Shown piece by piece: positions 20,853 through 59,600 of a DNA stretch of 64,000 nucleotides; the first letter of the stretch is position 1; the number at the start of each line of letters is the position of its first letter. Below the pieces are notes generated by a model that was given only the letters and a program-made list of their open reading frames with translations, ran no database searches and was not told where the DNA came from. Origin of the DNA: Mesostigma viride (Eukaryota > Streptophyta > Mesostigmatophyceae > Mesostigmatales > Mesostigmataceae); contig RPFO01000154.1 in NCBI GenBank assembly GCA_009746045.1, positions 2,996,993 to 3,060,992 on the forward strand, read 5' to 3'. The position numbers were made by a program, and so were the translations under genes.

Positions 20853-23800
20853 TCGGTTGCGGCGGGCCAGCTCTATGACGACCTGCCCGAGCGTGTGCGG
20901 CGCTTCGTGGGCACCAAGGAGGAGTGGAAGGTCAAGTAAGTGGCGGCGGATAGAAGAAAGCAGATTGGATGGTTGAGTACGTGACGGGGGATGGAAAGGA
21001 GCCGGATGGAAGGTCAAACATCTGGCGGTTGTCTTAAGGATGCAGGAAAAGGGAAAGGTCGACCAGGTTTGGTTCGAAAGAAGAAAGCAGAACCAGGAGG
21101 AATATTTATTTGCGAGTCGAAGGAGACAGGGGTGGCCAGGTGCCTGGTTCAGATACGTTTTGCCAAAAGAAGAATATATAAAGATGTCTATACTACTAGT
21201 AGTATAATAGTATATATACTACTATATAATGCAGAGATAGGTTTACTTGAAAGAAGAACGTTCCCCAGACGCTCTGTTGGTCAGAGGGTGAAGAGCAAGC
21301 ACTGGCCGCACAGGCGAAGGGGGAAGCGAAGGGCTTCTCGGCTTGAAAGGAGTGTGTTCCCGAATCATACGATGGGCCATGCACGAATGACAGGAGATTC
21401 CCTCCGCCCTGCTGGCGCCATCCTTTTGCGGTCTTTCTCCTGCCCTGCCTCTTCAGCACCTTTATCGTCACTTGTTAAGGAGGGCAAGGAGAAACAATAC
21501 TGTTACAACGTAGCTGTGAGCCTCCAACTGTCGGCCTCCGTAAGCCTTTCATGCAGCTTACTCATCCTCTTTGTTTTGCCTTGCCACACACCCTCTCCTC
21601 ACCATGTTTCCCTGGAATGGTCTTGGCCTCTCGCTAAACTTTTTTGTCTGCCCCCTACCCACCCTTGGTTTACAGAGTCCCTGCCTTTTCGTCCTCAAGT
21701 ATGACCTTGACCTTTTATTTGGCCCCGCATGCCCCTACGTGTCTTGATACCCCCTGTTGTCCTTATCTTGCCCAGTCTGACCCCTTCCATGCTCTCCATC
21801 CTTCCAAACTCCCCACCCCACACACACACACACACGCTCACAAACCTCCCGCTCCCTCCCCACACTCGCCCCTGCTAGCATCATATTTACTTTTATCCTC
21901 TCCGAATGATCTACTTCTCCTTGCCCCGCACTTCTCCTTGCGCCTCGGTGTCCCGCTGCGATCGCCCCTGCTGCCCCACGCTAACCTCTTTCCCGTCGCA
22001 ACCGGTTCTGCCTCCCACAGGGCGAAGGCCGTGCTCGTGCGGCATGGCGGCGAGTGGTCCGAGTCGTTTGGCAAGCACGTGTGTGGCGAGATGGAGTACT
22101 ACGAGGAGTTGCTCAAGCACATGCGCGCTTGCTACCGGGTAGGTGGCCATGACTCGACCATTATCCAGGCACTGTAATATAGACGCCATGAATGCTCACC
22201 CCACCGCCATTACCCTAGCCCCGACCCACCCCGAATGCACACACAGCGCGGTTGCTCGGCTGTGTGTAGTAGGATCAGTGCTTCCTGCTACAGGCTGGTC
22301 AGGCTATAGTGACCCAAATAGTGTCAGGTGCACGTATTTTTTGACCAACCTTTCAGACGACATTTCGAAATATTTCCAAAAGAAGAGAAAAATAAAATCC
22401 AAAGATTGATGTTTCAACATTTCTAACCTAAGAAGTGTAGCTGCAGTGATGTGATTTGATGCTACTGTGTAGTGTATATTGACCATGTCAGCACCCAGGC
22501 CACCAGCCAATCAAGGGGTGCTTGAAAAAAAAATAAAACCCACCAAAAAATAAGAAAACATGAAAGCTTTTGCCAGTGTGGTGATCTGGCTGGCAGACAG
22601 CCAGACACAGCCATTGGACAATACCTGGACATAGACTGGCTTTCCAGAAAATCTTCTTGGGATCTCAAGAAACTGAGACCACTTTTCCTTAGCATTTTTT
22701 CCTGCCTGATCCAACTGCGGACGGGGCGGCCCAAAATACGCTGGATCGCTAGGTGTAAATGCGGATTTACCATGCAAATAATCTTACTGGTTGACTGAAA
22801 GCTGCTGCCACTGGTAGTAGATCTAAAAATTTCTGATCGCCCCTTTCGCAGTTGTGTCCGTCGTGAAAAACTGCCAGGCAAATGTGCTTCCAGATTTTCC
22901 AGATTGTGTCGTAAGTCGTGGGAAACTCGAGGTGACAACATGCGGATCACTATAGCCTGACCAGCCTGTAGCGTGAGGTCTTCGCATAAGCACTGAATAG
23001 GGCTCGTGTCGCATGATGAACAGACGCATGCTGTCATCCGTCACAGGACTACCAGCCAAGTTATAGCATTATTTGTTTTGTGCCTATCCTCAACCGCTAA
23101 AGATCCAGTCCTATGCGTGTGGGTGTTCATCCACCAATGATGATCATCCAACGGTGGTTGATCTTCCACTGATGAAAACCCATGTGGCTGTGCACAGCTC
23201 ACAGCTTGCCATCCCATGCATCCGCAAGCCATGCTAGTTTGCGCACAGTGGCACCATGGGCCATCTGATGTTATCTGTTATGATCATTCATATCACTATT
23301 ATTTTTATTTTTATCACTATTGTTATGCGTGGCATTGTTCGGTGTGCACTACTAGGTTATGTCCTCTTTCATGCTCTCACACATGTCGCTCCGCGGGTCA
23401 TCCCCCCCCCCCCCCCCCCCCTGGCAGGTGTTTCCCTACCACCTGGCGCACTACATCGTGCGCGTCATGCGCATCACTCCCTTCCGCTACTACTCCGACA
23501 TGCTGCTGGACCACATGAGAAATGGTGAGGGCCGTCAGCGCTATTTGTTTCTGCATTTGAGGAAGTTGACGTGAGGGCACGACTACTCGGATATGCTGCT
23601 GGACCACATGAGAAATGGTGAGGGCCGTCAGGGCTATTTGTTTCTGTGTTTGAGGGTGTTGACGTGAGGGCACGACGAGTCAGACATGTTGCTGGACCAC
23701 ATGAGAAATGGTGGGTGCACGCGGCATGAGCAGAGCTGAGATGGTTTTTTTTTTTTTTTTTTATGATGGCCACGGAGTCGTGGGGGCTTAGGAAGGGTAA

Positions 23801-56600: not shown

Positions 56601-59600
56601 ACCCCGTCGGCCTCCCCCTGCCCCACCCACCCAAACCCCCTACCCTCTCATACCCACCCCCACCCCCGCCCCCACTCTCCACGTCCACATAAATCCAGGC
56701 GGTCATTGCGAACCTGTTCTCCATCTCAGGTCCGGTGTCCACGTTCGTGCTGCGTGCGACAGTAGAAGCACCTGTCAGTAACGTGACGGGGCCCCGCCAG
56801 CAGCTCAGCCAGTTCAACCTGACCCATTCAGCGCGCGTGACCACTGTGTTCCGCTACACCGACCCAAACATCCCGCCACCGCCACCACCGTCACCACCAC
56901 CGCCACCACCACCACCACCGCCACCACCATCACCACCGCCGTCACCATCGCCACCACCAGGGGCTCGCGCTTCGCCGCCACCACCACCGTCGCCAGCACC
57001 GCCTTCCCCCTCGCCACCCCCGCCTTCCCCCTCACCGCCCCCGCCTTCCCCCTCACCACCCCCGCCGCCCCCACCCTCACCACTGCCTCCTTCCCCCTCC
57101 CCTCCACCATCGCCGCCACCTCCTTCGCCGTCTCCCCCCCTCCCCCGCCCCCTCCCCCCCCCCAAGGTGGTGTTTCGGGGCGAGAGCGACCCCCATTTTG
57201 TGGGCGGCGGCGGTGTGCGCTTTGACTTCATGGGAACGGCGGGCAGTACCTACTGCCTGCTCTCGGACGCGCTCGTCCATGTGAACATGCGCATGCAGGG
57301 GGCCAAGGCGGACGAGCAGCGCACCGCCACGGTGCGTCCATTGGTTACTGCATTGATGTATTCACTTATGCATCAAGGAATAAGATGTCCTCATGGCGCA
57401 CCTTTTTTCATTTTCCCCCGTGAAAGGAACGTGCACCGTGGCACTTTTTGCGTTGTGGAGTTCTGTTCGCTAGAAATGATTTCCACGCGGGGGTTCCCTA
57501 GGCCCGTACTTGTCGGTCAAAGGGTTTCCCTTATCAGATGAAAGGGTCTCCCCACTCAAGTCAAAGGGTTTCCCCACTAATCGCAGCAAACGGGACAGCA
57601 GGCTCGCTTTACGCACAGGCGTATACCTGCAAGTTTGACCTGTGTAGCGAGTCTGGATTTGTGGGTGGGGGGCTTTTAGCTTCTGTCAGTAGCATGTTTG
57701 CCCCCATCGCCCCCCCCTTCTCCACCCCCACACCAGCTTGCAGAACGGGCCTACCATGCCATGGCCCCCCCTGTTATTGCTCACTAATAAGTATCGTAGA
57801 CACTTCTTAAAGCCACGTTGGCATGCTGGGGTACTTCATCCACCCTATCCCCACGCACGCGCCATCTATCTCCCTGACTAATAAACCCGCTGCCATCTGT
57901 CCCCCCCAGTGGATGGACAAGTTGGCCGTCATATGCTAGCATCACTAGCGAGAACTACCCCTCGCTACTAGTTCATCATCATTCATTTTGATCAAATGCT
58001 TTGTCATGCTGTGCTCGTCTACCCAGCACCTACTGCCACCTGTCCTTCCCCCGGTGGATGGACTCCCTGGGCGTTACCTACTACCTCTCCTACAACATCA
58101 CTAATGCATTGTTCACTAACGCTTTGCCATCCTGTGCTCGTCCACTCACACCCCGGTGCTAACCTCCAGTGGATGGAGTCGCTGGCCGTCATGTACTACC
58201 CCTACTACAACATCACCATCAGCGCCGAGTCACCCGAGGGCACCCCCTTCACCGCCGCGCACGGCACGGTAACTGTAAACAAAGTAAGTAAATGGTCTGT
58301 CGTCGCTGTAAGCGCAGATGCATGTACAGATGTATGCTGTATGCGCAGATGGGCGCACTCTGTGGTTGCCGCAAGAATAGTGGAATATCCAGCCTTCAGA
58401 TCCAGCCTGGAGAATGTGTGTGCGCGATGTTGGGGCACTGCCTACGAAGCCATCCAGGGGGGGGGGGCATGCCATTCTGTTACTGCATGGTCTGCGGCCA
58501 TTATAAGCAGAGTTGTGCACCTCCGAAGAGTCCTGCCTTACTGCCTTGTCTGCCTTGTCTGCCTTATCTGCCTAATCTGTCTTACTGCCTTACTGCCTTA
58601 TCTGCCTTATCTGCCTTACTGCCTTACTGCCTTGGCTGCCTTGGCTGCCTTGGCTGCCTTGGCTGCCTTGGCTGCCTCGGCTGCCTTGGCTGCCTTGGCT
58701 GCCTCGGCTGCCTTGGCTGCCTTGGCTGCCTTGGCTGCCTTGGCTGCCTTGGCTGCCTTGGCTGCCTTGGCTGCCTTGGCTGCCTTGGCTGCCTTGGCTG
58801 CCTTGGCTGCCTTGGCTGCCTTGGCTGCCTTGGCTGCCTTGGCTGCCTTGGCTGCCTTGGCTGCCTTGGCTGCCTTGGCTGCCTTGGCTGCCTTGGCTGC
58901 CTTGGCTGCCTTGGCTGCCTTGGCTGCCCTATCTGCGAACAAAGCTCTTTATGCCGCCCACGCTATCTGCCCTATCTGCGAACGATACCCTTACGGCCGC
59001 CCCTGCCACTGCCTTGCTGCCCTCGCCACCCAACGCTGCTGCGAGCAGAAGATGATGAAGGCCAAGAAGGTGTCCACGATGGTGCGCTGGCATGGGCTGA
59101 CCATCCAGCGGCGCAAGACGCGGATCGCCCTGCGCATCGACAACCTGATGGCGCTGGAGGTGGAGGTCGTGCGCGCCGCCTTCTGGTGCGTTCCGCGATG
59201 CTGTCATTATGTGATGGTGTACGGTGACATTTGATAGTAGTCTTTAGTAGAGGTGGAGGTCGTGCGCGGTGTATAGTGACATTTTTTTGTAATCTTAAGG
59301 TGGAGGTCATGCGCGCCGCCTTCCGGTGGGTGGCGGCACGGCTATCTCTTATATTCTATAATTACAGCGCAGCCTAGAGCAGCCTAGTTGGTGCACGCCG
59401 CTGTCTCATGCATTCCTCAAAAGATTGCAGGTTTGTCTATACTCGGTATAGAATCATACTTGTGCCAAGAATTTGGTACTTAGGCTAAGAGTACCAGAAA
59501 TGCTGACAACACCAGCATCAGCACAGCACCAGCGTAGGCACCAGGCTTGCTGGCACAGTACCAGCGTTATGCTATAGTACTATGCTACTTTCATGCCATC

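Follow-up and report, generated by a model that had tools for sequence, protein, structure and literature searches.

The window, a 64,000-nt stretch of green algal DNA, contains four genes whose exon models each join into one open frame: FAM91, LHCA, a gene denoted 'Root_cap', and a deaminase gene. The introns of these genes are all GT-AG, except for one GC-AG intron in the deaminase gene; in all four, the first and last modeled exons have arbitrary outer limits. The FAM91 product matches the Pfam family FAM91_N (E = 2e-81), and the deaminase gene product matches PF00383. The name 'Root_cap' found no confirmation, a 150-aa stretch of the product giving no Pfam match at E ≤ 0.001. Close relatives of the window genes were not found, the best among the matches listed being 57% for LHCA and 46% for FAM91, and a search of the assembly revealed no additional allele for the FAM91 region.

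We define an echo as a same-strand copy of the exon edge of a splice junction, located in the adjoining intron, and denote as clear those with a score of at least 17. Within 400 nt, clear echoes are present at 12 of the 44 splice junctions in the window, compared to none of 1710 shuffled junction-intron pairs and none of 44 reverse-complement tests; at a score of at least 15, the respective counts are 13/44, 2/1710, and 0/44. Wrong-side tests in the window gave no matches (0/33), and copies were detected for 2 of 113 exon interiors, both from a single proline-rich low-complexity exon. As a comparison set, we used kinesin genes of the same 440-Mb assembly, chosen irrespective of the echo pattern. 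Echoes were found at 14 of their 66 junctions (shuffled pairs, 16/4072; reverse complement, 0/66), whereas none of 285 exon-interior segments at least 50 nt inside the exon had a copy; thus, the contrast between edges and interiors, which the preliminary description had set as a test able to refute it, favors the edges. Several kinesin copies are recent (identities 35/35, 31/31, 28/29, and 44/46). The earlier view that exon edges undergo pervasive and recent duplication on the same strand, with introns growing longer as a result, is supported by its recurrence at unselected junctions, with some copies identical over 31-35 nt. Taken over both sets, 26 of the 110 tested junctions, about one in four, have an echo. 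The exon-edge echoes are genuine and extend beyond the window.

Most echoes lie 40-150 nt from the original and usually include the splice site of the copied edge; in two of the 14 kinesin cases (the L012 and L013 exon starts), the match lies 3-14 nt into the exon and misses the splice site. Donor edges have echoes more often (18/55) than acceptor edges (8/55; uncorrected p = 0.042), a bias that would follow if the longer 3' signal were more difficult to keep intact.

Table 1. Exon edges with echoes in the window (positions are those of the window)
Feature	Span	Strand	Details
Deaminase gene (exon 14258-14448), old array of exon-start echoes	14574..15264	-	five above null
FAM91 exon 3 end (23524) and 2 echoes	23489..23718	+	93-bp unit (exon, 36 nt; intron, 57 nt)
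FAM91 exon 4 start (24152), echo	24059..24088	+	26/31 identities; intron side p = 0.020
FAM91 exon 4 end (24378) and echoes	24333..24804	+	24436-24487, 40/52; 24537-24584, 36/48; 24756-24804, 37/49
FAM91 exon 5 end (26253), echo at 26331-26374	26216..26374	+	40/44 identities
FAM91 exon 7 start (27520), 3 upstream echoes	27223..27552	+	27223, 27/32; 27319, 28/33; 27406, 36/39
FAM91 exon 7 end (27712), weak echo at 27927-27962	27687..27962	+	score 18.5, null maximum 14
FAM91 exon 8 end (29308), echoes at 29390-29424, 29513-29557, 29629-29668	29272..29668	+	
LHCA exon 5 end (47403), following intron	45506..47402	-	86-bp x 11.3 array at 46327-47297, unit contains exon end
LHCA exon 4 start (48891), echo at 48984-49077	48858..49077	-	spacing 126, including about 60 nt of intron
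LHCA exon 3 end (49612), echo at 49470-49517	49470..49653	-	41/48
LHCA exon 3 start (49718), weak echo	49826..49848	-	18/23, shuffle p = 0.007; intron side p = 0.025
LHCA exon 2 end (50888), G-rich 30-bp array running on into intron	50645..50896	-	43/58, p = 0.003
LHCA exon 2 start (51012), weak echo	51076..51098	-	21/24, p = 0.003
'Root_cap' gene exon 3 start (58170), echoes 57903-57947 and 58048-58101	57903..58216	+	34/45 and 44/54
'Root_cap' gene exon 4 end (59185)	59156..59331	+	partial echo 59250-59268, 19/19; echo 59298-59331, 31/34

Most of the echoes listed in the preliminary description were recovered (Table 1). In FAM91, these include, at a score of at least 17, both echoes of the exon 3 end, where the third copy of the unit breaks off just past the splice site, all three of the exon 7 start, and all three of the exon 8 end (intron side p = 0.015, 0.050, and 0.72). 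For the exon 7 end, one or more echoes had been claimed, and we found two weak ones, the second at 28361-28394 (score also 18.5, null maximum 14). Three of the four echoes claimed for the exon 4 end are clear, but the fourth is no better than shuffled introns (p = 0.23 and 0.42); of the two claimed for the exon 5 end, one is clear, and the other, a possible older copy at 26550-26576, is weak (19/27 identities, p = 0.027 against shuffled introns). The clear echo of the exon 4 start was absent from the earlier list. Both pairs of echoes in the 'Root_cap' gene were found again as clear ones; the nearer echo of the exon 3 start matches at 90/123 positions across exon and intron. In LHCA, the echoes of the exon 3 end, exon 4 start (37/40 on the exon side; 83/97 across exon and intron), and exon 5 end are clear (score ≥ 17), whereas those of the exon 2 start, exon 2 end, and exon 3 start outscore shuffled introns but are weak; the exon 2 end array reaches only 14.5 in the 400-nt junction count. 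The array at the LHCA exon 5 end fills 971 of the 1897 nt of intron 5, with diverged copies beyond it, down to about 46160, and at least 8 of its echoes score 17 or more. Minisatellites occur in introns, and this head-to-tail array of similar units is one; it is distinguished by a unit that contains an exon edge, and most edge loci have only 1-3 copies. Copies farther from the exon had been described as more diverged, which is the case at several multi-copy junctions but not at the FAM91 exon 8 and exon 4 ends.

The deaminase gene, missing from the preliminary description, is a fourth window gene with acceptor-side echoes. The scores in its array are 17, 16, 15, 14, and 14 (null maximum, 13 of 60), the best within 400 nt being only 14.5.

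Matches on the intron flank seemed uncommon in an initial fixed-window test, but in a junction-anchored test at least one copy showed intron-side homology at uncorrected p ≤ 0.05 at 7 of the 14 window junctions examined. In the kinesin genes L009 and L012, identities across the junction are 91/98 and 82/82; four rows of the kinesin extent test (L009 3506, L012 3681, L011 2774, and L015 2932) were self-overlaps and were left out. The unit is duplicated head to tail, wholly or nearly so, at FAM91 exon 3, LHCA exon 4, 'Root_cap' exon 3, L009, and L012. At several young loci (FAM91 exon 5 end, LHCA exon 3 end, and L022), the exon part and 6-8 nt of intron match, and the remaining spacer shows no homology, an outcome that a simulation of plain tandem duplication yields in 1.6-4.6% of cases. 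The exon part of the echo spans 24-52 nt at the clear window loci, whereas a simulation puts 60-67% of exon parts above 55 nt; in the kinesin genes, where queries were limited to 60 nt, its range is wider, 13-60 nt. With 12 window and 14 kinesin junctions having direct copies and none having reverse-complement copies, the echoes are nearby and in the same orientation, as is typical of small tandem duplications, and templated insertion in both orientations was rejected.

It is highly improbable that the echoes are an assembly artefact or represent dispersed mobile elements. Although one duplicated contig stretch is present in the assembly (L020/L021, 99.96% identical), the copies are local, same-strand, and found at all stages of decay, and they resemble the exon edge of their own junction, as the shuffled pairs in the window indicate. 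Contigs of up to 14.3 Mb suggest a long-read assembly. Introner elements likewise involve intron sequence in algae; unlike these, the echoes are local, and no dispersed family of similar copies appeared among the matches of the one FAM91 piece searched (1613 nt), which elsewhere matched only six stretches of 30-45 nt.

The preliminary description also connected the echoes with a route of intron gain in which an exonic segment containing AGGT is tandemly duplicated (the Rogers model). Tandem duplication is indeed frequent at splice junctions here, but the copied units, rather than being exonic AGGT segments, span existing junctions and lie within existing introns, and contain intron sequence at the 7 junctions noted above, and no copies of kinesin exon interiors were found (0/285), so that intron gain by this route is almost certainly not what the echoes record.

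Another conceivable explanation is that selection maintains the echoes as decoy or helper splice sites, given that the copies have an exon flank with a splice consensus and that the paralogous kinesins L012 and L044 have a common array in an intron the remainder of which is unalignable. GT is kept in 11 of 15 donor echoes (in two of these only with a one-base shift) and lost or changed to GC in the other four, and the site is deleted in a 16th copy; AG is kept in 7 of 9 acceptor echoes, with one additional, diverged LHCA copy left unscored (all dinucleotides were judged by eye). Measured against 142 mismatches in 802 positions of the exon parts of echoes, the splice dinucleotides are not conserved above background and drift like their surroundings. 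The stretch containing the array shared by L012 and L044 (88%, 375 nt) is more similar than two of the other four major alignment blocks (78-79%), the remaining two being at 86-89%; gene conversion or age would account for this similarity as readily as constraint. The spacing is indifferent to the reading frame (7 of 24 exon-echo spacings are divisible by three), and in-frame alternative exons were rejected on the same flat distribution modulo 3. We therefore consider selected decoys very unlikely. Coding constraint was rejected as well: exon/echo mismatches at codon positions 1, 2, and 3 are 42/269, 40/264, and 60/269, only a 1.45-fold elevation at the third position, roughly what an exon under selection and its neutrally evolving copy would show. 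No constraint on the copies is thus visible. Echoes were associated with GTG donors in the window (7/9 vs 2/13, p = 0.007), but this was not replicated in the kinesins (8/10 vs 15/22, p = 0.68; all counts by eye).

That such duplication is peculiar to exon edges, as the earlier impression had it, is not supported: edge-free introns contain 23 duplicated loci in 25.9 kb. The ratio of edge matches per junction to interior loci per kb is 0.27, compared to 0.07-0.15 (highest replicate, 0.27) in a neutral simulation of uniform duplication with frozen exons, leaving an edge excess of only about 2-4 fold; a large excess suggested by the window alone shrank to this value with unselected genes and loci-based counting. 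An annotation-free scan of the window (37 rows; short-unit arrays masked beforehand, rows merged by eye) recovered 11 exon junctions, 12 with the deaminase array, against 5 other loci at spacing ≥ 60. This excess, the scan, and the narrow exon part at the clear window loci would be in line with a factor linked to the splice junction, such as transcription- or R-loop-linked breaks, a GC step, or exon chromatin, that raises the frequency of duplication starts there, each copy taking in some 40 exon nt together with 6-40 or more intron nt, with or without filler. We regard such an edge-directed process as unlikely, considering that, per segment, the kinesin edges (14/66) are hardly above edge-free introns (80/460) and within the simulated range, that a frozen exon copy makes duplications at edges easier to detect, and that the exon part is wider in the kinesins. 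Likewise doubtful is the more general proposition that splice junctions are duplication hot spots, where breaks linked to transcription, splicing, or exon chromatin would time after time place copies of some tens of nucleotides of exon, with the splice site, in the intron, such that introns grow outward from exons and much intron DNA is decayed exon edge.

Most probably, the echoes are ordinary small local duplications that straddle exon-intron junctions in a genome with introns generally full of such duplications. Duplications within exons would break the protein and be lost, whereas a junction-crossing duplication would spare the reading frame if the copy beside the exon retains a complete splice signal, and would persist, the other copy being spliced out. 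This second copy, in the intron, would then drift unconstrained while selection holds the exon copy, so that the echo would long remain recognizable, and short repeats could expand by unequal exchange into arrays, lengthening the intron. Given the homology-free spacers, the short exon parts, and the edge excess, either filler insertion or an edge-linked factor has to be added to this scheme.

An origin in break repair would accord with a study in which small tandem duplications, formed by end joining at breaks with overhangs (for example, through CST/Pol alpha-primase fill-in), are described as the most frequent insertions below 100 bp in the human genome and were produced from breaks with 43-bp overhangs (PMC8355091). 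The algal copies are likewise local and same-strand; they differ in being recognized by their position at splice junctions and in their long survival and decay, and are known from the copies, the breaks being unseen. The potato RdRp case features a duplicated intron-exon structure and an 83-bp duplication within an intron (PMC4974935). Tandem duplication including splice signals is common to that case, the Drosophila cases (PMC2891723), and the echoes, but the algal copies create no new intron; instead, an existing intron grows. In the literature covered, tandem duplication figures as a route of intron gain and in single junction-spanning cases, and none of the titles and abstracts covered describes a genome in which exon-edge copies are pervasive, an absence that is only weakly tested.

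Exon-edge echoes are a directly visible and datable source of intron growth, in which each exon edge provides a fixed reference for recognizing and ageing the intronic copies. If about a quarter of the junctions carry such copies, intron length, the supply of alternative splice sites, and the raw material for new exon ends would be measurable from a single genome and testable in strains.

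Copies of exon edges, usually together with the splice site (hereafter, echoes), were sought at the junctions of four genes in the window, which corresponds to C1690:2996993-3060992 in an assembly of 439.9 Mb in 2243 contigs. The gene models comprise FAM91 (exons 1 to 10), an LHCA-type chlorophyll-binding protein (6 exons), the gene denoted Root_cap (exons 1 to 6), and a deaminase (3 exons), with a total of 44 junctions (22 donors and 22 acceptors). In each model, the joined exons form a single open frame, and all introns are GT-AG except for one GC-AG intron in the deaminase. 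The closest relatives among the protein matches listed are 46% identical for FAM91, which also matches the Pfam family FAM91_N (2e-81), and 57% identical for LHCA; the deaminase matches PF00383. These matches and the gene content suggest that the DNA comes from a green alga or another green plant. A Pfam search with a 150-aa stretch of Root_cap retrieved no family at E<=0.001, so this name is the label given in the preliminary description. Eight chlorophyll-binding matches from the same assembly (L001-L008, the first five with equal scores) each contain the greater part of the domain, or almost the whole of it, within one open frame, so that this part is apparently intron-free, in contrast to the intron-rich LHCA gene of the window. 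A repeated block in the window (see table) appears to be a segmental or transposon-related repeat of recent origin; one copy of its open frame was searched in Pfam, with no family at E<=0.001.

For every junction, the exon edge (at most 60 nt of exon plus 8 nt of intron) was aligned to as much as 400 nt of the adjoining intron, with a score of at least 17 taken as a clear echo. Such echoes were found at 12 of the 44 window junctions, compared to 0 of 1710 pairs of the same edges with introns of non-neighbouring junctions and 0 of 44 reverse complements (at a score of at least 15, the counts are 13, 2, and 0, respectively). The claim that exon edges recur in the adjoining introns is therefore borne out. 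Earlier passes over a partial junction set gave a similar result, with null maxima of 10-16 in one pass and, in the second pass, echoes for 12 of 35 edges and 0 of 33 wrong-side tests. Only two of 113 exon-interior segments in the window matched an intron, both from one proline-rich, low-complexity exon. Four weaker echoes outscored shuffled introns (p=0.003-0.027): the second FAM91 exon-5 copy and three LHCA junctions from the preliminary description, which stand above background but are weak. The fourth FAM91 exon-4 copy listed there scored no better than shuffled introns. The deaminase, previously not listed, has five echoes of the start of its first modelled exon (scores 14-17, null maximum 13), with a score of just 14.5 within 400 nt.

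Genes picked blind to the pattern came from one family, the kinesins. A kinesin-domain search of the genome yielded 129 exon matches, of which 109 lie in 40 stretches; neighbouring matches were paired and splice sites placed by script, giving 37 introns. Exclusion of one low-scoring intron and three introns of a duplicate contig left 33 introns and 66 junctions. The excluded contig, C622 (kinesin locus L021), repeats part of contig C2 (L020) at 99.96% over 5.5 kb and is probably an assembly duplicate. Own-intron echoes were found at 14 of the 66 junctions at a score of at least 17 and at 7 at a score of at least 25, against 16 and 0 of 4072 shuffled pairs between loci; the reverse complement (0/66), exon-interior segments at least 50 nt from an edge (0/285), and the wrong side (0/20) gave none. 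At two of the 14 junctions, the exon starts in loci L012 and L013, the match does not span the splice site but begins within the exon, 3-14 nt from its edge. Several kinesin copies are recent, with identity at 35/35, 31/31, 28/29, and 44/46 positions. Given this replication and the near-identical copies, the exon-edge echo pattern extends past the window, and its formation is still going on.

Tandem or near-tandem units spanning the junction were found at FAM91 exon 3, the starts of LHCA exon 4 and Root_cap exon 3, and in two kinesin loci (L009 and L012). Intron-side homology (p<=0.05, uncorrected) was detected in at least one copy at 7 of the 14 window junctions tested (24 copies). At FAM91 exon 5, LHCA exon 3, and kinesin locus L022, the match is confined to the exon part with 6-8 bases of intron, and the spacer shows no homology. 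When plain tandem duplication was simulated, only 1.6-4.6% of comparable pairs lacked intron-side homology. Such spacers might have arisen from filler DNA inserted at the repair joint. Arrays can reach a considerable size, as in the LHCA intron after exon 5 (see table).

Features of the window and of two kinesin loci (window coordinates unless a locus is named)
Feature	Position	Strand	Description
FAM91 exon 3 unit			2.4 copies of a unit that joins 36 nt of exon to 57 nt of intron
LHCA exon 4 start echo			83/97 identical across exon + intron
Root_cap exon 3 start echo			90/123 identical across exon + intron
Array in LHCA intron after exon 5			86-bp unit including exon end, x 11.3; 971 of 1897 nt
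Deaminase exon 1 end	14258	minus	apparent GC donor, CAG/GCATGT, giving GC-AG intron
Repeated block	6812-10912	minus (open frame)	about three near-identical copies, 99.4-99.8%, with repeated 172-aa open frame
Short repeats in FAM91 intron 4	24965-25993		about 1 kb, CAAA/ACAGACCG type
28-bp intronic array	12855-12929		unrelated to exon edges
28-bp intronic array	51347-51658		unrelated to exon edges
Kinesin paralogue, exon and echo array	L012:2472-2846		exon shared with L044 + 2.4-unit array, 88%
Kinesin paralogue, exon and echo array	L044:1608-1982		exon shared with L012 + 2.4-unit array, 88%

The echoes could reflect ordinary small duplications or, less probably, a hot spot directed to exon edges. 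Introns carry a tandem-duplication load of their own, exemplified by the two 28-bp arrays, and those free of edge echoes contain 23 local-duplication loci in 25.9 kb. By segment counts in the kinesins, edges (14/66) scarcely exceed edge-free introns (80/460). Measured as edge hits per junction over interior loci per kb, the observed ratio is 0.26 in kinesins, 0.30 in the window, and 0.27 combined, compared to 0.07-0.15 (top replicate 0.27) across four settings of a neutral simulation in which duplications fell uniformly, exons stayed frozen, and decay, deletion, and a filter on splice signals operated. For young copies (at least 90% identity), the ratio is 0.22 against 0.05-0.11 simulated. Thus, edges are perhaps enriched two- to fourfold above the neutral model, the rates of which are assumed. 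The excess appears larger in the window alone: an annotation-free scan (short-unit arrays masked, spacing at least 60, rows merged by eye) recovered 11 exon junctions, with the deaminase array as a possible twelfth, compared to 5 loci elsewhere. The exon part of the echo spans 24-52 nt at the clear window loci, whereas the first simulation puts most above 55. The edge excess and the short exon parts do not follow from a simple duplication account. Echoes are more frequent at donors (18/55) than at acceptors (8/55; p=0.042, a single uncorrected test), as expected if a duplication must keep the whole splice signal beside the exon, the 3' signal being longer.

Judged by their sequences, the copies show no apparent sign of function. 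Exon-echo mismatches at codon positions 1, 2, and 3 (42/269, 40/264, and 60/269) include a modest third-position excess, as expected if coding selection acts on the exon side alone. Counted by eye, the donor dinucleotide GT survives in 11 of 15 echoes (two of these after a shift by one base) and the acceptor AG in 7 of 9, a degree of loss consistent with the 18% mismatch found across the exon parts. Copy spacing shows no reading-frame preference (multiples of three in 7 of 24). In the kinesin paralogues L012 and L044, the intron beyond the shared array is unalignable. The array stretch is 88% identical; of the four other main aligned stretches, two are less similar (78-79%) and two lie at 86-89%, so constraint accounts for the similarity no better than age or gene conversion does. 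Gene conversion could possibly have carried the array between the paralogues.

The titles and abstracts surveyed included tandem duplication as a route of intron gain and single junction-spanning cases, but none described a genome in which copies of exon edges are pervasive. The echoes of the preliminary description were confirmed and extended, and its reading of them holds in part. The intron-gain route invoked there, in which an exonic AGGT segment is duplicated (the Rogers model, as presented in PMC4974935 and PMC2891723), differs from the echoes. A potato case in PMC4974935 is a close relative, as intron-exon structure is likewise duplicated. In PMC8355091, small tandem duplications are ranked first among short insertions of the human genome and were generated at breaks with 43-bp overhangs. 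The echoes would be a variant of this known class, with an edge excess of perhaps two- to fourfold over the neutral model, and small tandem duplication of the ordinary kind is the likeliest mechanism. Under this mechanism, duplications within exons would be purged, those spanning a splice junction would be hidden by splicing, and those inside introns would be free, so that the exon would serve as a preserved reference revealing its copies long afterwards.
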